From NCBI RefSeq assembly GCF_945980375.1, contig NZ_CAMFQO010000016.1, positions 1 to 40,314 on the forward strand: a stretch of 40,314 nt of DNA. Reading direction: 5' to 3'. The position numbers and the translations under genes were made by a program. Below are positions 2,414 through 26,469 of the stretch, one piece after another; positions within the stretch are counted from its first letter, which is position 1; the number at the start of each line of letters is the position of its first letter. The DNA is from an uncultured Eubacterium sp. GTDB taxonomy: Bacteria; Bacillota; Clostridia; Oscillospirales; Acutalibacteraceae. A model generated the notes under the pieces. It was not told where the DNA came from and did not search any database. It was given only the letters and a program-made list of their open reading frames with translations.

Positions 2414-3544
2414 ATGAAATTGTTATTTGCAACAGGAGGTACGGCAGGTCACATTAATCCTGCATTGGCAGTTGCATCATACATTCAGCAAAAATATCCC
2501 GATTCTCAAATTATGTTTGTAGGCACGGCAGATCATATGGAATCTCGCCTTGTGCCAAATGCAGGATTTGAATTTAAGACTATCGAGATTAACGGCTTTA
2601 AGCGCTCACTTTCGCCAAAGGCTGTTATTGATAATGTAAAAACGGTTTCAAGGCTTATTAAATCCGAAAAGGATTCAAAGCAAATCATTAAGGATTTTCA
2701 GCCTGATGTTGTTATCGGCTTTGGCGGATATGTTTCGGGTCCCGTGCTTGATGCCGCAGTAAAGATGCATTGTCCAACCTGTATTCACGAGCAAAATGCT
2801 TATCCCGGTATTACCAATAAGCAGCTTGCCAAAAAGGTGGACAAGGTTATGCTCACCGTTGAGGATGCGAGAAGTTATATGCAGGCAAAGAATGATGTTA
2901 TCATTACCGGTCTGCCTGTTCGTGGTGAGCTTCTTGAAAAATCAAAGTTTCAGGCAAGAATTGAGCTTGGCATTGCCGATGAAAAGCCTCTCGTTCTTTC
3001 ATTTGGAGGCTCACTCGGTGCAAGACCTCTCAATGATGCAATGCTTGATATTCTTCTTGAGGATTCTCAAAGAGATGATGTGTACCACATTCATTCTGTC
3101 GGAACAAACGGAATTGAATACCTTGACAAATTCGTAGAAAACGGCTTTAGCAAAAGAGCCGAAAATATATATTATAAGGGTAACACAGAGGTTAGGCTCT
3201 ATATTGATAATATGGACACCTGTATGGCCGCAGCAGATTTGGTTATCGGCAGGGCAGGTGCGTCATCGTTGTCCGAGATTGAGGCAATGGGAAAGGCGTC
3301 AATTCTTATTCCCTCACCGTATGTTGCCGAAAATCATCAGTATCATAATGCAATGGCACTTGTAAACCGTAATGCCGCAAGGATTCTTGAGGAAAAGGAT
3401 TTAACTGCGCCTTCGCTAAAGGCATTGATGAATGAGCTTATTGCAGATAAAAATGTGCTTAGTCAAATTGAACAAAACGCAAAGGATATGGCTATCATTG
3501 ACGCAAGGGAACGTATTGCGGATATCATCCTGTCACTTGTGTAA
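2414..3544 (+). CDS. murG: UDP-GlcNAc:undecaprenyl-PP-MurNAc-pentapeptide GlcNAc transferase MurG
   Basis: MurG is a GT-B glycosyltransferase (GT28) on the inner membrane face that converts lipid I to lipid II. The N-terminal glycine loop reads GGTAGH (residues 8-13), a variant of the usual GGTGGH. HEQN is at 125-128, FGGSLGARPLN at 197-207, and the UDP-GlcNAc binding stretch GRAGASSLSE is followed by ENHQ at 306-309. The 376-residue length is normal. It starts 11 bases after the SEDS gene and clearly shares its operon. Confidence 0.96.
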   Translation: MKLLFATGGTAGHINPALAVASYIQQKYPDSQIMFVGTADHMESRLVPNAGFEFKTIEINGFKRSLSPKAVIDNVKTVSRLIKSEKDSKQIIKDFQPDVVIGFGGYVSGPVLDAAVKMHCPTCIHEQNAYPGITNKQLAKKVDKVMLTVEDARSYMQAKNDVIITGLPVRGELLEKSKFQARIELGIADEKPLVLSFGGSLGARPLNDAMLDILLEDSQRDDVYHIHSVGTNGIEYLDKFVENGFSKRAENIYYKGNTEVRLYIDNMDTCMAAADLVIGRAGASSLSEIEAMGKASILIPSPYVAENHQYHNAMALVNRNAARILEEKDLTAPSLKALMNELIADKNVLSQIEQNAKDMAIIDARERIADIILSLV

Positions 3545-3588
3545 TTAACATTTATTTTCCGATTTCATAAACTGCCATAGGTGGTTTT

Positions 3589-4851
3589 ATGAAATGTCTT
3601 AAAATTAACGGCGGCAGAGCCTTAGAGGGAAGCATAGATGTTCACGGAGCAAAAAACAGTATTCTGCCTGTTCTTTGTGCAACAGTGCTCATTAACGGCA
3701 AATCCGTGATACATAACTGTCCAAGGCTTTCCGATGTAGAGGTTACTGTAAACATTCTGCGGTACTTGGGTGCAAATGTAAGCAGGGAGGGTAACACCTT
3801 AATTGTTGATGCAACAAGTATCTCTCGTTCAAATATTCTTGAGCCTCAAATGAAGGAGCTTCGTTCTTCGATAATATTTCTCGGTGCTTTGGCGTCTCGA
3901 ACCGGTCAGGCTTGCCTTTATCTTCCCGGTGGTTGCGATATTGGGTTAAGACCTATTGATTTGCATTTGAAGGGACTTAAGGCTCTTGGATATGAGGTTT
4001 TTACAGACGGACATAATGTATGCGCCACTCGCAGAGATGTTATCGGTAAAGAGATTGTTTTGCCGTTTCCAAGCGTAGGCGCAACGGAAAACATTATTCT
4101 TGCTTCGGTTTTAGCCAAGGGCACAACAACCATAGTAAATGCTGCAAGAGAGCCTGAGATAGAAGATTTAGCTGATTTTCTCAACAAAGCAGGTGCAAAA
4201 ATATTCGGTGCGTCTACCCCGACAATCACTATCGAGGGCGTTAATGAATTAAACGGAGCAGAGCATACCGTTATCCCCGATAGAATTTTAGCAACTACTT
4301 TAATGTCTGCCTGTGCCATTACAGGAGGACAGATTCAGCTTAATAATGTTTGTATGTCGCACATTATGCCTACCTTGCCTGTGTTTGACGAGATGGGCTG
4401 TGATGTAAGCTATAATTATTCATCTGTAAAAATAAAAGCTCCCCATAGGCTTAAACGGGTTAAAAGCATAGAAACTATGGCATATCCGGGATTTCCTACT
4501 GATTGTCAGGCACCTGTTATGTCGGCTTTGTGTGTTGCTGACGGAACATCTATTATTAAGGAAACTATATTTGAAAACAGATTTAAGCATATTGAACAGC
4601 TTAATTTGTTTGGTGCGGATATTTCGGTTAATGACAGAATAGCTGTTATTAACGGAGTAAACAGCCTTCATAGTGCAAATGCAAAGTGCACCGATTTAAG
4701 AGGAGGAGCGGCAGTTGTCATCGCAGGACTTTCTGCCGAGGGCGAATCAACGATAACAGATATTCACCATATCGACAGAGGATATGAGAATATAGAGCAT
4801 CAGCTTTCCTTGCTGAATGCTGATGTAAAGAGGATAGACGATGAAAAATAA
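3589..4851 (+). CDS. murA: UDP-N-acetylglucosamine 1-carboxyvinyltransferase MurA
   Basis: Catalyses the first committed peptidoglycan step, transfer of enolpyruvate from PEP to UDP-GlcNAc. The EPSP-synthase fold protein (420 residues) has K22-N23 in GAKN, catalytic-loop Cys C116 in GGCDIGLRP, and D305 in FPTDCQAP. These match the numbered active-site residues of E. coli MurA almost exactly, C116 standing for C115. Having Cys rather than Asp in the loop is the form associated with fosfomycin sensitivity in the family. The ribosome site AGGTGG precedes the ATG. The 3' end overlaps ftsQ by 11 bases. In Bacillus, murB or murA paralogues sit at a similar place. Confidence 0.96.
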   Translation: MKCLKINGGRALEGSIDVHGAKNSILPVLCATVLINGKSVIHNCPRLSDVEVTVNILRYLGANVSREGNTLIVDATSISRSNILEPQMKELRSSIIFLGALASRTGQACLYLPGGCDIGLRPIDLHLKGLKALGYEVFTDGHNVCATRRDVIGKEIVLPFPSVGATENIILASVLAKGTTTIVNAAREPEIEDLADFLNKAGAKIFGASTPTITIEGVNELNGAEHTVIPDRILATTLMSACAITGGQIQLNNVCMSHIMPTLPVFDEMGCDVSYNYSSVKIKAPHRLKRVKSIETMAYPGFPTDCQAPVMSALCVADGTSIIKETIFENRFKHIEQLNLFGADISVNDRIAVINGVNSLHSANAKCTDLRGGAAVVIAGLSAEGESTITDIHHIDRGYENIEHQLSLLNADVKRIDDEK

Positions 4852-5803
4852 CAAGTCAAATAATAAAAAGGATAACAGTATGGCTCCGCTCAATGATGAG
4901 CTTGGCTTTTTTGATCTTGAGCCACCGAAGATATACCGCAGTGATCAGTCTGCAAATCGTAGCACACAGGCTGATAAAAAGGGTAAAAAGGCATCAACAA
5001 AAGCAAAGCAACCGTTAAAAAAAGCAAAAGCAGACGGTGAAGTAAGAAGCAAAAAGAAGCGTAAGCTAAAGAAAAAGTTTAGGCTCGCCTTTACTGCCGT
5101 AGGTATGATTGCACTGATTGCTTTGATAATTGTTGTGCTAAGCTTAACTGTATTTTTCAAAATTGATACAATAAATGTTGAGGGAACAAAAAAATACAGC
5201 TACAAGCAGGTAACATCTGTTTTGCCTATTGATAAGGAAAAAAATTTGTTCCTCATTGATAAAAAGGGAGCAACAAAAAAGCTTGAGGAAAACCTGCCGT
5301 ACATCTATGATGTAGAGATTACACGCAAGCTTCCGTCAACCGTTGTTGTAAAAATAACAGAGCCACAGCTTATTTATTATGTAAAGAACAGTGACAATAC
5401 CTACACCTATTTTGATGATAACTTTAAGATTCTTGAGGTAAATGTTAAGGAACCTGCCGAAAAGGGAATAGAGCTTAAAAAAATCGCCTTCAGCGATGTA
5501 TCACCGGGAAAAACCGCAAAACTTACAAACGAAGAATTGTTGTCTGATTTACAGATAATGATGCAAACCGTAACAAGCCTTAAGCTTAAGGAGGTTACGG
5601 CTATGTATTCCGAAAGCCTTGTTAATAATTATGTTGTATACGACAACAGAATTACAATTAAGCTTGGCGAAACAAAGGATATTGAGGATAAGCTTTTTAC
5701 AGCCTTGACTGCTATTGAAAAGCTTAATGACACTGCTCCCGATGCAGAGGGAACTCTAACTGCCACAAACAGTAAACAGATTTACTTTACAGAGAAAAAA
5801 TAG
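4841..5803 (+). CDS. ftsQ: Cell division protein FtsQ/DivIB, POTRA domain
   Basis: Bitopic divisome protein that links the FtsL/FtsB(DivIC) complex to septal wall synthesis. The 320 residues comprise a Lys-rich cytoplasmic tail of about 80 residues, one transmembrane helix at about 85-108, and an extracellular POTRA domain beginning FFKIDTINVEGTKKYS. That domain includes the typical LPYIYDVEITRKLPSTVVVKI segment split across the beta-strands. A beta domain follows. The start overlaps the end of murA by 11 bases, so translation is probably coupled. Sequence conservation is low, as usual for this family; topology and dcw position carry the call. Confidence 0.88.
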   Translation: MKNNKSNNKKDNSMAPLNDELGFFDLEPPKIYRSDQSANRSTQADKKGKKASTKAKQPLKKAKADGEVRSKKKRKLKKKFRLAFTAVGMIALIALIIVVLSLTVFFKIDTINVEGTKKYSYKQVTSVLPIDKEKNLFLIDKKGATKKLEENLPYIYDVEITRKLPSTVVVKITEPQLIYYVKNSDNTYTYFDDNFKILEVNVKEPAEKGIELKKIAFSDVSPGKTAKLTNEELLSDLQIMMQTVTSLKLKEVTAMYSESLVNNYVVYDNRITIKLGETKDIEDKLFTALTAIEKLNDTAPDAEGTLTATNSKQIYFTEKK

Positions 5804-19875: not shown

Positions 19876-20919
19876 ATGAGAATTTCTAAAAAAATAAAAA
19901 TCGGCAACACCTTTATCGGTGGTGACAGTCCTGTATTGGTTCAAAGTATGCTTAATGTTGCCTCAACGGATATTGACGGCTCCGTTAAGCAAGCAGTTGA
20001 GCTTGAAAGGGCAGGCTGTCAGGTAATACGATTTGCTATCCCTAACGAAGAAGCACTTGCTTTGATTGAGCCTATAAAAAATGCAACTACGGTTCCGCTT
20101 GTTGCAGATATTCATTTTGACTATCGCTTGGCATTGGGTGCGGCAGAAAGAGGTATTGACAAAATTCGCATCAATCCCGGCAATATCGGCTCACAGGATA
20201 GGGTTAAGGCTGTTGCAGATATTTGTAAGCAAAAGGGATTGCCTATAAGAATAGGCGTAAATTCCGGCTCGCTTGAAAAGGAGATTCTTGCCAAATACGG
20301 CTCTCCTACTCCTCAGGCTATGGTAGAGTCTGCGCTGTACCATGCTTCACTTTTGGAAAAATTTGATTTTGATGATATTGTTATTTCCATCAAATCATCA
20401 AATGTAAACACAATGATTAAGGCATATGAGCTTGCAGCCGAGCAATGCAGCTATCCGCTTCATCTGGGTGTAACCGAGGCGGGCACAGAGCGTATGGGTA
20501 TCATCAAATCCGCTGTCGGTATTGGGTCACTGCTCACTCACGGTATAGGCGACACAATTCGTGTAAGCCTTACGGATGCACCTGTTAAAGAGGTATATGC
20601 CGCATTTGATATTCTAAAGGCAATAGGATTAAAAACAGATTGCCCTTATCTTGTTTCCTGCCCGACCTGTGGCAGAACAAGGATTGACCTTGTCGGTCTT
20701 GCTCAAAGAGTTGAGGAAAGATTAAGAGATTGCAAAAAGCCAATCACCGTTGCTGTTATGGGCTGTATAGTTAACGGCCCCGGTGAAGCAAGGGAGGCAG
20801 ACATCGGTGTTGCCGGCGGTGACGGCTGCGGTCTGATATTTAAGAAGGGTGAGATATTACGCAAGGTCCCTGAAGAAAATTTGTTAGATGAATTGATGAA
20901 AGAGATTGAAAATTTGTAA
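19876..20919 (+). CDS. ispG: 4-hydroxy-3-methylbut-2-en-1-yl diphosphate synthase IspG (GcpE)
   Basis: [4Fe-4S] enzyme of the MEP pathway that converts MEcPP to HMBPP. The N-terminal TIM-barrel carries PVLVQSMLN and ADIHFDYRLAL. The C-terminal cluster domain has C262 and C265 (CPTCGRTRIDL), C297 (VMGCIVNGPGEA) and the fourth ligand E304. The 347-residue length is the short bacterial form. The stop overlaps the polC start by one base. Confidence 0.97.
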   Translation: MRISKKIKIGNTFIGGDSPVLVQSMLNVASTDIDGSVKQAVELERAGCQVIRFAIPNEEALALIEPIKNATTVPLVADIHFDYRLALGAAERGIDKIRINPGNIGSQDRVKAVADICKQKGLPIRIGVNSGSLEKEILAKYGSPTPQAMVESALYHASLLEKFDFDDIVISIKSSNVNTMIKAYELAAEQCSYPLHLGVTEAGTERMGIIKSAVGIGSLLTHGIGDTIRVSLTDAPVKEVYAAFDILKAIGLKTDCPYLVSCPTCGRTRIDLVGLAQRVEERLRDCKKPITVAVMGCIVNGPGEAREADIGVAGGDGCGLIFKKGEILRKVPEENLLDELMKEIENL

Positions 20920-23900
20920 TGAATAAGCTTTATGACTACTTTTCACCGTATATAAACGATAACGATTTGGCTGTTATAGGCAGCGGAGAAATTACAAAAT
21001 TTGCTGTAAGCAGGAGTAACAGATCACTTGAGGTTGGCATTATGCTTGACAGGATTGTGGATTATTCCGTTGTTGTAAGAGTTCAAAAATCACTTGAAAA
21101 AAATCTACAGCTAAAAACAGCTGTGTTAAATATTAAATATCCGAGCAGTCTGTTCAGTGTTGAAACGGTAGGCGCCGTGCTTTCAAGGATAGGCTGTCTT
21201 AACCCTGTTGTAAACGGATTTTTTGACAATGCCGATGCAGAGCTTGAGGATAATGTGCTGACCGTTTGCCTTAAAAACGGAGGCAGGGATCTTCTTGAGT
21301 CACAAAATATCGGCAAGGAAATTATTGCCGGAGTTTATGAAATGTTCGGAGTAGACCTTGATGACGTTTCGTTTCTTGAGGTTGAGGCATTCGATATGGA
21401 GCAGGCAGTGCGCAAGGCTGTAGAGGAAAAGGCTGCCCAAAAGGCAAAGGAGGAGGCTGAAAAGGAGCAGTATGTTCCCCATATTCAACTTGGAGATTTG
21501 CCCCTTTATGCCGATACAAGAAAGCAGATTTTTGGCAGACCTATTAAGGATTTGCCAAAGCCTGTTAAGGAGGTAATGCCCGAGGATGGCTTTATTACCG
21601 TTTGGGGCGATGTGCTTAAAACCGATGTGCGTGACACAAAAAGGGGAGATTCTCGCATATTTACATTTGACATCACGGATTACACATCATCAATTTCGGT
21701 AAAGCTGTTTGATAAGAATTCCGTTATTGACCCCATAATAAAGAACATTGAGTCAGCGGGCACCGTGATTGTAAACGGTATTTACCAGTATGACCAGTTT
21801 TCGGGTGAATACCTTATCCGACCTAATAATATCGAATCGGTTAAGAAAATAGAAAAAACAGATAATGCTCCCGAAAAAAGAGTAGAGCTCCATTTGCATA
21901 CCTCTTTTTCCGATATGGACGGTATCAATACGCCCAAGCAGCTTGTTGCACGTGCGGCAAGGTGGGGGCATAAGGCTATCGCCGTTACCGACCACGGAGT
22001 AGTACAGGCTTTGCCCGAGGCTTATGCGGCGGCAAAGGCTAACGGTATCAAGCTGATTTTGGGTATGGAGGGGTATTTAGTTGATGACAGCCTTTATCCT
22101 GATTTTATGAATATGAAGATGAAGGAATTTCGCCGTCATCACATTATTCTTCTTGTTAAGGCTGATAACTCAATGCCTATGCGACTTGATGAGAATTGGC
22201 GACCTGTTATGGATGAGCCCGAGGACGGAATTGTTCACCGCGGCAGAAAAAATCTTTATGAGCTGATAAGCCACAGTAATGTCAAGACCTTTAAGGGCAG
22301 ACCGCTTATACCTAAATCATTGCTTCAATCAAAGCGAGATGATATTCTTGTAGGCTCCGCGTGTGAGCAGGGAGAGCTTATTCAGGCTATTCTGCGTGGC
22401 GAAAGTCAGGAAGAAATAGAACGACTCGCACAGTTTTATGACTACATAGAAATTCAGCCAAACGGCAATAATGCCTTTATGATAAGGTCTACCAAGGAGC
22501 TTCACGACGGCATCAACAGTGAAGAAGATTTGATTAATCTTAATAAGCGACTTGTAGAAATTGCGGACAAGCAGGGCAAGCTTGTTGTTGCCACGGGTGA
22601 CGTTCATTTTCTTGATGAAAAGGATGCTAAGTTCAGGGCAATTATTATGGCTTCAAAGGGCTTTGATGACGCTGATAATCAGGCACCGCTGTATTTTAAG
22701 ACAACCGACGAAATGCTCGAGGAATTTTCTTGGGCAGGTGATAGGGCAAAGGAATTTGTTATTGACAATCCAAACAAGATTGCCGATATGATTCAAGATA
22801 ATATTCCGCCTATTCCTCCGGGAACATATCAGCCTTATATCGAAGGTGCTGACGAGGAGCTTACCGAAAAGTGCTGGGCAACAGCAAAGGAGCTTTACGG
22901 CGACCCTGTGCCCGAATATGTTGCCTCCCGTCTTGAACGAGAGCTCAACTCAATCATCTCTCACGGCTACGGTGTGCTTTATGTAATTGCAAAGCGACTG
23001 GTAGAGGAAAGCGAGCGCAACGGATATTTGGTTGGCTCAAGAGGCTCTGTAGGTTCGTCACTTGCAGCTCATTTCGGCGGTATATCGGAGGTTAATCCGC
23101 TTGCACCTCATTATTACTGTAAAAAATGTAAGCACAGCGAATTTTTCCTTAACGGCGAGTATGGCTCCGGCTTTGACCTTCCAAAAAAGAATTGTCCTGT
23201 CTGCGGTGAGCCTATGAAGCGAGACGGACACGAAATTCCGTTTGAAACCTTCCTTGGCTTTGACGGTGACAAGGAGCCTGATATTGACCTTAATTTTTCC
23301 GGTGAATATCAATCTCGCTCTCATAGATTTACCGAGGAACTGTTTGGTAAGGAATATGTGTTCAAGGCAGGTACAATGGCTACCGTTGCCGACAAAACCG
23401 CATATGGCTACGTAAGAAAATATCTTGATGAAAGAGAGCTTACAAACATCACATCAAGAGCAGAAATAGATCGTCTGACCGTTGGTTGTACGGGTATCAA
23501 AAGAACAACCGGTCAGCACCCGGGCGGTATGGTTGTTGTGCCCGACAAATATTCTGTTGAAGATTTCACACCCATTCAGTATCCGTCAAACGATGAAAAG
23601 AAGGGTACATATACAACTCATTTTGACTTTAAGAATTCACTTCACGATACTCTTCTCAAGCTTGACGAGCTTGGCCACGATAATCCGACACTTTATAAGT
23701 ATCTTGAGGATGCAACAGGTGTTCCGGTTATGGATGTTGATTTGTGCGATCCAAAGCTTTATGAGCTTATTACCTCGTGTGCTCCGCTCGGTATAACAAG
23801 AGATGATATAGATAATGATACAGGCACGCTGGCCATTCCTGAAATGGGCACACCGTTTGTTGTCGGTATGCTTGTGGAGGCACAGCCTAAAACCTTTGCC

Positions 23901-24755
23901 GACCTGCTTCAAATTTCGGGACTTTCACACGGTACCGATGTGTGGCTCGGAAATGCACAGGAGCTTATTAAGCATGGCACTTGTACGATTTCCGAGGTTA
24001 TCGGATGCCGTGACGACATTATGACATATCTTATCCATAAGCTTGAGGCATATGAAAGAGAAACGGGCAAGCAAGCTCCTCTTACCAAAAAAGATTGCTT
24101 CAAAATTATGGAGTACACACGTAAGGGCAAGGCAACAAAGGAGCTTCCTCCTTATGAGGAGGGAATGAAAACCATAGGTGTTGAGCAGTGGTATATTGAC
24201 TCCTGCTACAAGATCAAGTACATGTTCCCAAAGGCTCACGCGGCAGCATATGTTATTGCGGCTCTTCGTATTGCGTGGTACAAGATATATTATCCTGTTG
24301 AATTTTACAGTGCATACTTTACCGTTCGCGGAGGCGCTATTGACGCCGTTGCCGCCGTTCAGGGCAAGGAAGCGGTAAAGAAAAAAATGAACGAAATCAA
24401 GCTTAAGGGCAATGACGCAACCGCCAAGGAAGAATCGCAGTATGTTGTTTTGCAGATTGTAATAGAGATGCTTGCCCGTGGCTACGAATTTCTGCCGGTT
24501 GATTTGTACAAGTCGGATTGGCGTGTTTACAAAATAGAGGACGGCAAAATCAGACTTCCGTTTTCTGCAATCGATGGTATAGGCGAAACTGCGGCACAGG
24601 CGATTGCCGATGCAGTTGAGCGTAATCCTGACGGCTTTATCGCGTCGGATGATTTGGCAAATGAGCCGGGTGTGGGCAAGTCTGTTGTTGATGCACTTAG
24701 AGGTGCGGGAGCACTCGGAGATTTGCCGGAAACCACACAGATTTCTCTGTTCTAA
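20919..24755 (+). CDS. polC: DNA polymerase III alpha subunit, PolC type, lacking the embedded exonuclease domain
   Basis: Main replicative polymerase of low-GC Gram-positives. Order of the 1278 residues: N-terminal domain (1-190), OB fold (about 225-315), PHP domain starting H325-L-H327-T, zinc finger C734/C737/C759/C762, palm with D788, D790 (PDIDLNFSGEYQ) and D916 (LKLDELGHD), then helix-hairpin-helix region and a C-terminal clamp-binding QISLF. In B. subtilis-type PolC (about 1440 residues) a DEDD exonuclease is inserted inside PHP after the EANIVDD region. Here E384-GYLVDD runs within some 15 residues into RRHHIILL and no DxETTG motif exists. PHP ligands H325, H327, D358, H359, E384, H408, C482, D561 and H563 are all present. 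An extra segment of about 20 residues follows H408 (around ADNSMPMRLDENW). The frame is continuous. Confidence 0.96.
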   Translation: MNKLYDYFSPYINDNDLAVIGSGEITKFAVSRSNRSLEVGIMLDRIVDYSVVVRVQKSLEKNLQLKTAVLNIKYPSSLFSVETVGAVLSRIGCLNPVVNGFFDNADAELEDNVLTVCLKNGGRDLLESQNIGKEIIAGVYEMFGVDLDDVSFLEVEAFDMEQAVRKAVEEKAAQKAKEEAEKEQYVPHIQLGDLPLYADTRKQIFGRPIKDLPKPVKEVMPEDGFITVWGDVLKTDVRDTKRGDSRIFTFDITDYTSSISVKLFDKNSVIDPIIKNIESAGTVIVNGIYQYDQFSGEYLIRPNNIESVKKIEKTDNAPEKRVELHLHTSFSDMDGINTPKQLVARAARWGHKAIAVTDHGVVQALPEAYAAAKANGIKLILGMEGYLVDDSLYPDFMNMKMKEFRRHHIILLVKADNSMPMRLDENWRPVMDEPEDGIVHRGRKNLYELISHSNVKTFKGRPLIPKSLLQSKRDDILVGSACEQGELIQAILRGESQEEIERLAQFYDYIEIQPNGNNAFMIRSTKELHDGINSEEDLINLNKRLVEIADKQGKLVVATGDVHFLDEKDAKFRAIIMASKGFDDADNQAPLYFKTTDEMLEEFSWAGDRAKEFVIDNPNKIADMIQDNIPPIPPGTYQPYIEGADEELTEKCWATAKELYGDPVPEYVASRLERELNSIISHGYGVLYVIAKRLVEESERNGYLVGSRGSVGSSLAAHFGGISEVNPLAPHYYCKKCKHSEFFLNGEYGSGFDLPKKNCPVCGEPMKRDGHEIPFETFLGFDGDKEPDIDLNFSGEYQSRSHRFTEELFGKEYVFKAGTMATVADKTAYGYVRKYLDERELTNITSRAEIDRLTVGCTGIKRTTGQHPGGMVVVPDKYSVEDFTPIQYPSNDEKKGTYTTHFDFKNSLHDTLLKLDELGHDNPTLYKYLEDATGVPVMDVDLCDPKLYELITSCAPLGITRDDIDNDTGTLAIPEMGTPFVVGMLVEAQPKTFADLLQISGLSHGTDVWLGNAQELIKHGTCTISEVIGCRDDIMTYLIHKLEAYERETGKQAPLTKKDCFKIMEYTRKGKATKELPPYEEGMKTIGVEQWYIDSCYKIKYMFPKAHAAAYVIAALRIAWYKIYYPVEFYSAYFTVRGGAIDAVAAVQGKEAVKKKMNEIKLKGNDATAKEESQYVVLQIVIEMLARGYEFLPVDLYKSDWRVYKIEDGKIRLPFSAIDGIGETAAQAIADAVERNPDGFIASDDLANEPGVGKSVVDALRGAGALGDLPETTQISLF

Positions 24756-24852: not shown

Positions 24853-26469
24853 ATGAAAAGATATTCAAAGATTACACCGCAGGGAAGCAGAGATTATTTG
24901 TTTGAGGAATGCGATGACAGGAGAACTGTCGAGCATGAGCTTTCCGCTTTGTTTAAGGAGAACGGATACAGAAAGGTTATCACTCCTTCAATAGAATATT
25001 TTGATGTTTTTAAGAGCGACAACACGGGTATAGAGGCGCAGGAGATGTTCAAGATGTCCGATTCAAACGGCAGAACAACCGTTCTTCGCCCTGATAACAC
25101 CATGCCAATTGCCCGTATGGTAGCCACCCGTTTGCATAACGAGGAGCTCCCTGTACGCCTGTATTACAATCAGCCTGTATTTGTCAGAGCAAAGGATCTG
25201 GCAGGCAGACCGAGCGAAATTGCTCAAAGCGGTGTGGAGCTTATAGGCGATGGCTCGTTTGATGCGGATATAGAAATTGTAAAAATGGCTGTTGATAGCC
25301 TAAAGCGCAGCAACCTTAATTCATTTAAGCTCGAGATAGGCAATGCCGTATTTTTCAATGTTGTTCTCGGCAAAATGGATATTGCACAAACCGTTAGGGC
25401 AGACATCATTAATTGTATAGAATCAAAGAATTACGCCGCACTCGGTGATTTGCTTGACAAAATCGGTGATACAGCCGAAACAAGAGTTATTCGTCGTTTG
25501 CCTCGTCTGTTCGGTGATGCTTCGGTTATTGATGAGGCAAAGAAGCTTTATTCCGATTCCGCATTTCAGCAGGCATTGCAGTATCTTCAAACTGTTTACA
25601 ACCGTCTTTGTGATGAGGGGCTTGAGGATTACATTATTCTTGACCTCGGTCTTGTAAACCGTTCCAATTATTATACAGGTATTATCTTCCACGGCTATGC
25701 CGAGGGCTCCGGCATTTCTGTGCTTTCGGGCGGTAGATACGATAATTTGCTCGGCGAATTCGGTATGCCTGCACCTGCTATCGGCTTTGCCGTTGAGGTG
25801 ACTGCGTTATGCGAGGCAATGCGCGAGGTAATAAATGTTGAACGACCTATCCGTATTGCTTTGACCAAGGGAAGGCTTGAAAGAAAAACCGTTGAGCTTT
25901 TCAAAACCATGGGGCTTGATACAACCGAGCTTGAAAACAAGGGTAGGAGGCTTATTCTTCCTGTTGATAAATACGAAACCGTGCTTTCAAAGGCACCCGA
26001 TGTCATCACCTATGTTGAGCACGGAGTTTGCGATATAGGTGTTGTAGGCAAGGATACAATTGTTGAGCACGGCAGTTCCTTTTACGAGGTTATTGATTTG
26101 AATATCGGTAAATGCAGATTTGCACTTGCCTGTACAAAGGGAACGGATTTCTTTTCCGGCTATAAGCGTAAAACCGTTGCCTCAAAATATCCAAAGGTTG
26201 CAAAGGAATTTTTTGAATCAAAGGGTATGGACGTAGAGGTTATTAAGATTGAGGGCAGTGTTGAGCTTGCTCCGCTTTTAGGTCTTGCCGACGGTATTGT
26301 CGATATAGTTGAAACAGGCTCAACCCTTAAGGAAAACGGACTTGAGGTTGTTGAGGAAATATTCCCGATTTCTGCACGAGTTATAGTAAATATGGCTTCT
26401 ATGAAGCTTCGCAAGGCTGAAATAGAGGAATTTTTGAACGATTTAGAGATTGCATCCCGAGTGATATAG
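24853..26469 (+). CDS. hisZG: Fused HisZ-HisG: ATP phosphoribosyltransferase regulatory and catalytic subunits in one chain
   Basis: One 538-residue chain holds two proteins that are usually separate. Residues 1-330 are HisZ, a histidyl-tRNA-synthetase-like regulatory subunit. It has TPQGSRDYLFEE, the motif-2-like VLRPDNTMPIAR and the motif-3-like GGRYDNLLGEFG...AIGFAVEV. Residues 331-538 are short-form HisG, starting RPIRIALTKGRLERKT, with the PRPP loop GLADGIVDIVETGSTLKENG. The enzyme makes phosphoribosyl-ATP, the first step of histidine synthesis, and HisZ normally gives histidine feedback to short HisG. No stop or frame change is visible at the junction. It is the first gene of a his operon with its own promoter. 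Confidence 0.93.
   Translation: MKRYSKITPQGSRDYLFEECDDRRTVEHELSALFKENGYRKVITPSIEYFDVFKSDNTGIEAQEMFKMSDSNGRTTVLRPDNTMPIARMVATRLHNEELPVRLYYNQPVFVRAKDLAGRPSEIAQSGVELIGDGSFDADIEIVKMAVDSLKRSNLNSFKLEIGNAVFFNVVLGKMDIAQTVRADIINCIESKNYAALGDLLDKIGDTAETRVIRRLPRLFGDASVIDEAKKLYSDSAFQQALQYLQTVYNRLCDEGLEDYIILDLGLVNRSNYYTGIIFHGYAEGSGISVLSGGRYDNLLGEFGMPAPAIGFAVEVTALCEAMREVINVERPIRIALTKGRLERKTVELFKTMGLDTTELENKGRRLILPVDKYETVLSKAPDVITYVEHGVCDIGVVGKDTIVEHGSSFYEVIDLNIGKCRFALACTKGTDFFSGYKRKTVASKYPKVAKEFFESKGMDVEVIKIEGSVELAPLLGLADGIVDIVETGSTLKENGLEVVEEIFPISARVIVNMASMKLRKAEIEEFLNDLEIASRVI

Follow-up and report, generated by a model that had tools for sequence, protein, structure and literature searches.

A PolC-type DNA polymerase III lacking its embedded exonuclease but retaining a complete PHP metal site, and evidence for recurrent Exo loss among related polymerases

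Textbook accounts make Gram-positive replication fidelity depend on the DnaQ-like exonuclease of PolC. Read from its sequence, the PolC encoded in the 40,314-nucleotide stretch of DNA analyzed here (the window; contig NZ_CAMFQO010000016.1 of an uncultured Eubacterium sp.) lacks this embedded exonuclease (Exo), and both its polymerase core and the metal site of its PHP domain are complete. The reading we favor, and consider probable, is that this is an ordinary chromosomal PolC from which a DEDDh Exo was lost as a redundant proofreader, that such loss has been recurrent, and that the PHP domain is the likely backup.

The polC gene (20919..24755; forward strand, as for all window features below) is a single uninterrupted open reading frame of 1278 residues, identified as PolC by Pfam, NCBIfam and phmmer. 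The NCBIfam PolC equivalog cut-offs are passed in two separate stretches (NF001688, 1386.9 bits with a cut-off of 873; TIGR01405, 1265.4 bits with a cut-off of 1043.45), and PHP (residues 323-513), Pol3 alpha, finger and HHH_6 score above their Pfam cut-offs. Matches to the PolC-specific N-terminal domains NI/NII (residues 14-182, 20958..21464; PF14480, PF11490) and to the OB domain (residues 237-306, 21627..21836; PF01336) fall in the expected order but are weak, NI reaching 22.1 bits (cut-off 22), NII 19.8 (26.3) and OB 18.8 (27); the OB region is covered in the phmmer alignment with PDB entries 3f2b and 9qpc. The alignment with 3f2b, which according to the available text of PMC12592400 is G. 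kaustophilus PolC with Exo taken out for crystallization, is one stretch that runs from residue 216 to 1278 of the window PolC and spans the junction. The polymerase motifs are intact, as the first-pass annotation of this DNA had reported: alignment places the catalytic aspartates at D788 and D790 (23280..23288) and D916 (23664..23666), the zinc-finger region (residues 732-768, 23112..23222) holds its four cysteines, although Pfam's zinc-ribbon profile gives no significant match, and the chain ends in the clamp-binding-like motif QISLF (residues 1274-1278, 24738..24752). By Pfam, the gene row before polC comprises AA_kinase, RRF, undecaprenyl diphosphate synthase, CTP_transf_1, DXP reductoisomerase, an M50 peptidase with a PDZ domain and ispG (GcpE; 19876..20919), which abuts polC. 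Directly after polC, tRNA-synt_His (HisZ-like) and HisG are fused in one 538-residue protein (24853-26469), followed by histidinol dehydrogenase.

At the Exo site the chain passes from MEGYLVDD (from residue 383) to RRHHIILL (from 405) with no DxETTG between them, and the claimed absence of a DnaQ-type exonuclease is borne out. Alignments leave a 25-residue loop at this site (residues 383-407, 22065..22139; MEGYLVDDSLYPDFMNMKMKEFRRH), which starts beside the PHP ligand E384 and lies within blocks of the AlphaFold2 model with mean pLDDT of 95-97. Only 23 residues separate ligands E384 and H408, as against an Exo-bearing segment of ~215 residues in relatives that have the domain (exo+). No RNase_T/exonuclease domain is matched in the window PolC by Pfam, and searches of Pfam, NCBIfam and the PDB rule out a divergent Exo hidden elsewhere in the chain.

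The source assembly is a draft of 53 contigs, and the missing domain could in principle be an assembly or binning artefact, an explanation to which we now give practically no weight. We collected 80 related loci from other assemblies, 72 with frames longer than 1150 residues and 8 partial. All 72 full-length loci share the architecture, with a loop of 22-32 residues at the Exo site, and one of them comes from an isolate, Eubacterium coprostanoligenes ATCC 51222 (L294); this refutes the assembly deletion that had been raised as a concern. Moreover, the window junction is in frame and the exo-less architecture also occurs in many distant families. No Exo motif was found in the 8 partial loci, some of which stop short of the junction. 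The records nearest to the window's come from bacteria of the gut and rumen that carry the labels Eubacterium, Ruminococcaceae or Clostridia. Across a broader set of 99 exo-less PolCs, the window's included, the leftover loops vary from 13 to 59 residues and differ in sequence.

The PHP domain is interrupted only by this short loop. Its first part (21879..22067; AlphaFold2 model mean pLDDT 90) supplies ligands H325, H327, D334 and H359 and its second (22140..22718) H408, C482, D561 and H563, and with E384 all nine metal ligands are present (HHDHEHCDH), as they are in the DnaE of the same genome. This nine-ligand signature is the one scored 'active' in the available text of PMC12926913. M. tuberculosis DnaE1, which has a PHP exonuclease (5lew, 7pu7; accessible portion of PMC5636811), carries the signature HHDHEH[C/H]DH, to which the window PolC conforms and from which we predict activity; the window protein differs from DnaE1 in its PolC-type domain order and in loop length and sequence. 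It differs from the PolCs of B. subtilis, G. kaustophilus and E. faecium (3f2b, 9qpc) in having no Exo in the PHP loop, and its eighth PHP ligand is D rather than the N found in G. kaustophilus PolC and in all 14 PolCs read from a Bacilli-like class. The first-pass annotation had concluded that the main replicase seems to lack intrinsic proofreading. This stands for the DnaQ-type exonuclease and is unsupported as a general statement, the PolC's own PHP domain being a candidate proofreader with all nine ligands; the annotation's alternative suggestion, that proofreading might come from PHP, agrees with the signature, and the exonuclease activity itself is a prediction. The PHP domains of this PolC and of the co-resident DnaE are a second candidate proofreader and may together supply 3'-5' proofreading in the manner of M. 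tuberculosis DnaE1. Exo loss would then be tolerated because the PHP domains already proofread, making Exo redundant.

The PHP ligands HHDHEHCDH are intact in 99/99 exo-less PolCs and in 117/121 exo+ PolCs, the four exceptions all belonging to the Bacilli-like class. Since exo+ PolCs outside that class keep the ligands just as well, ligand conservation is no particular mark of Exo loss, and the PHP domain as a whole is not detectably better conserved where Exo is missing than where it is present. In a first set of 30 genomes the PHP site of DnaE was intact in 29, the exception (G632) being from the Bacilli-like class. A second set comprised 26 exo-less genomes. A DnaE match came from 25 of them, of which 24 could be read at every one of the nine sites and were intact and one could be read in part; the remaining genome had no match. 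All 43 DnaEs of exo-less genomes that were fully readable at the nine sites have an intact PHP signature.

The window PolC is of an exo-less kind known since 2013. The available text of Timinskas et al. (PMC3919608) puts such proteins at 6% of PolC and places them in Clostridia and Negativicutes, with one extra copy in Thermotogae; these share with the window protein the missing Exo insertion, co-occurrence with DnaE1 and a conserved PHP metal site, and we see no difference of kind. Alongside its exo-less PolC, the window genome encodes a DnaE, which we assign to type 1 from its intact PHP signature. To gauge frequency, we drew genomes by taxon, not by abundance, using the TIGR01405 profile (E <= 1e-50); exo-less counts made by profile depend on match start position and frame length. 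Among 150 genomes of the window's family, 131 had PolC, with 39 confirmed as exo-less by sequence and 2 carrying a dead Exo; 3 further PolCs appear exo-less by profile and some others are incomplete. At class level (137 genomes), 21/130 PolCs were exo-less by profile and 5 more had other inserts. This agrees with the 2026 survey PMC12926913, whose available text states that most Clostridia retain three active proofreaders, Exo included, and makes exo-less PolC a minority in Clostridia. At phylum level (139 genomes), the profile count rose to 63/106, and the sequences inspected were without Exo in 36 of 36 cases, with one dead Exo and four too incomplete to tell. Repeated loss and dead Exo are absent from the 2013 account as far as its available text goes, and its 6% has other denominators than the 63/106 phylum-wide and 21/130 class-wide found here. 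No published account of repeated Exo loss or of dead Exo in PolC was found in the open-licence PMC literature; the new part seems to be the repeated loss with dead remnants, in which a second candidate proofreading site stays intact.

On a tree of 229 PolCs, built quickly with the insert left out and with SH-aLRT support only, the best topology requires at least 27 changes of Exo presence, and at least 18 changes are forced by well-supported branches. A careful tree of 97 PolCs from the window's family and its neighbors gave 13 changes (bootstrap range 11-15), 7 of them forced, and a single grouping of all 44 rows without a working Exo was rejected (AU p 2e-28). The long branches L071 and L078 join in this tree and are possibly misplaced. 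The window PolC belongs with full support to a group of 6 exo-less proteins, and Exo would have been lost in the ancestor of this small clade. These trees strongly support the window loss as one of many that occurred independently in the phylum, the Bacilli-like class apart. The opposite polarity, in which exo-less PolC is ancestral and Exo arrived later as an insertion that gene transfer or recombination then spread, would fit the exo-less majority of the phylum-wide draw, interleaved as it is with exo+ PolCs, and draws on weak support near the root of a DnaE-rooted topology and on at least one exo+ row (L083) whose Exo is nearer to another core lineage. We consider it improbable. Of 28 supported splits in the Exo-domain tree, 24 are common to the core tree and 2 conflict, as would be expected if Exo was mainly inherited vertically and at times lost, and not gained repeatedly; loss in at least two lineages is indicated by a dead Exo at this very position; and the earliest branch of the DnaE-rooted tree is an exo+ PolC (L194), though this rooting is weak. 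One or more regains of Exo, L083 for example, may have occurred, and the PolC tree is not firmly rooted.

The dead domains are Exo-sized inserts that still match the Exo profile (65 bits in L073, 50 in L075 and 38 in L211; hhalign 99%). L073 and L075 come from two congeneric genomes of family f1, and L211 is from family f91. The five catalytic Exo residues are kept in all 121 exo+ PolCs by alignment, although matching the Exo motifs as strict text had missed 27 of the 121. By alignment, too, five of five catalytic positions are replaced in L211, and in L073 and L075 the E and H are both missing, with one aspartate left in L073 and three in L075. The inserts of L073 and L075 are 45% identical and their cores 83% identical; in 60 exo+ pairs with core identities of 80-85%, Exo identity is 63-79% (5-95% range). 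In L210, the congeneric nearest neighbor of L211, Exo is absent, and the two other inspected members of that family keep theirs. It is strongly supported, from the aligned residues, that at least two lineages carry a recognizable and catalytically dead Exo at the same site, and such inserts suggest an order of events in which Exo would first be silenced, then decay and finally be deleted. Two other kinds of insert at the Exo site were left out of the proven dead-Exo count: a segment of 329-331 residues that family f57 carries in its PHP loop (L182-L184), with an Exo probability of 24% by profile comparison, and an insert in family f54 for which the same comparison gives a weak 60%. Separately, two genomes encode a second PolC-like copy, L074 (G146, 2969-5494, reverse strand, 841 residues) and L076 (G073, 2730-5045, reverse strand, 771 residues); in both, PHP ligands are broken and the clamp motif is missing, and L076 has also lost two of the three polymerase aspartates. 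Neither copy entered the trees or the counts of PHP ligands, polymerase triad, zinc finger and clamp motif.

An exonuclease acting in trans could replace the embedded domain, and a free DnaQ/epsilon had been proposed as something to search for. None was found in the window genome, where the single RNase_T match at E <= 10 is a 290-residue RNase_T-family protein with a cysteine cluster at its C-terminus (L001, 1156-2028, reverse strand). That this or another separate DEDD exonuclease proofreads for PolC appears very improbable. At least one free RNase_T match (E <= 1e-4) is present in 20/25 exo-less genomes, but such matches are equally common in exo+ genomes (22/25), with no enrichment in the exo-less, and most have frames of ~280-340 residues in both groups. 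Moreover, five of the 25 exo-less genomes (G116, G131, G046, G093 and G086), 96-99% complete, have no match at this threshold. Strong free matches (>100 bits) occur in 2/25 exo-less genomes (G063 and G149, the latter from the window's genus), in one of the two dead-exo genomes (G146) and in 1/25 exo+ genomes (G001). General compensation by free DnaQ is ruled out by these counts. A link between Exo loss and missing mismatch repair is likewise ruled out, MutS1 being matched in 51/52 genomes, the window's own included, exo-less and exo+ alike. The match in G006 is partial only, and the sole genome without one is G086, which is exo-less, also has no RNase_T match and is 96% complete.

In the Bacilli-like class the eighth PHP ligand of PolC is N instead of D in 14/14 PolCs read, 10 of which are the top scorers of the class, and in a draw of 151 genomes, 150/150 PolCs among the matches listed run end to end through Exo and none is exo-less. 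By our own mapping, this ligand would correspond to D226 of M. tuberculosis DnaE1, where the available text of PMC5636811 reports that D226N abolishes the PHP exonuclease. We used only this D-to-N change because ligand six reads differently between two alignments, as H in one and as G/R in the other. We infer that the class, to which G632 belongs, is Bacilli, because its PolCs carry the N ligand and the DnaE PHP site of G632 is degraded. The retention of Exo where PHP is broken comes from one class and 14 sequences read, and is not an independent test. A broader reading, which we advance tentatively and rate at slightly under an even chance, is that in clostridial-type replisomes PHP is the indispensable proofreader, that Exo is redundant and has gone through silencing followed by deletion on about twenty occasions or more, being locked in only where PHP is broken, as in the Bacilli-like class, and that some exo-less genomes replicate without any RNase_T-type proofreader. 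Should much of the phylum be able to do without Exo, the primary proofreader of these bacteria is likely the PHP site. The exo+, dead-exo and exo-less relatives, including one dead/exo-less pair within a single genus, form a natural series for testing which site proofreads and what its loss costs in mutation rate.

PolC could also spare its Exo if it were no longer the main replicase and DnaE copied the genome, proofreading with its own PHP domain, an idea raised in the available text of Timinskas et al. (PMC3919608). The window genome does encode a DnaE with an intact PHP site, and some related genomes have no PolC match, for example 9 of the 10 family-f9 genomes in the draw from the order. 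We think this explanation unlikely, though it carries real weight. Exo-less PolCs show no decay: the polymerase aspartate triad and the zinc-finger cysteines are each intact in 99/99, the window's included, and a loose clamp-like C-terminal motif is present in 95/99, as against 119/120 exo+ PolCs. In addition, exo+ PolCs of the window's family reside in the same cells as the same kind of DnaE (3/3 read). Redundancy of Exo, with predicted PHP exonuclease activity as backup, remains our preferred reading. As separate observations, the nine family-f9 genomes without a match (E <= 1e-50) suggest replication without PolC, the tenth (G226) giving only a partial match that contains internal stops, and in another genome (L379/L380; G139:C24:20050-26574) the DnaE matches are split by a long in-frame insert, perhaps an intein, within an open frame of 2315 residues.
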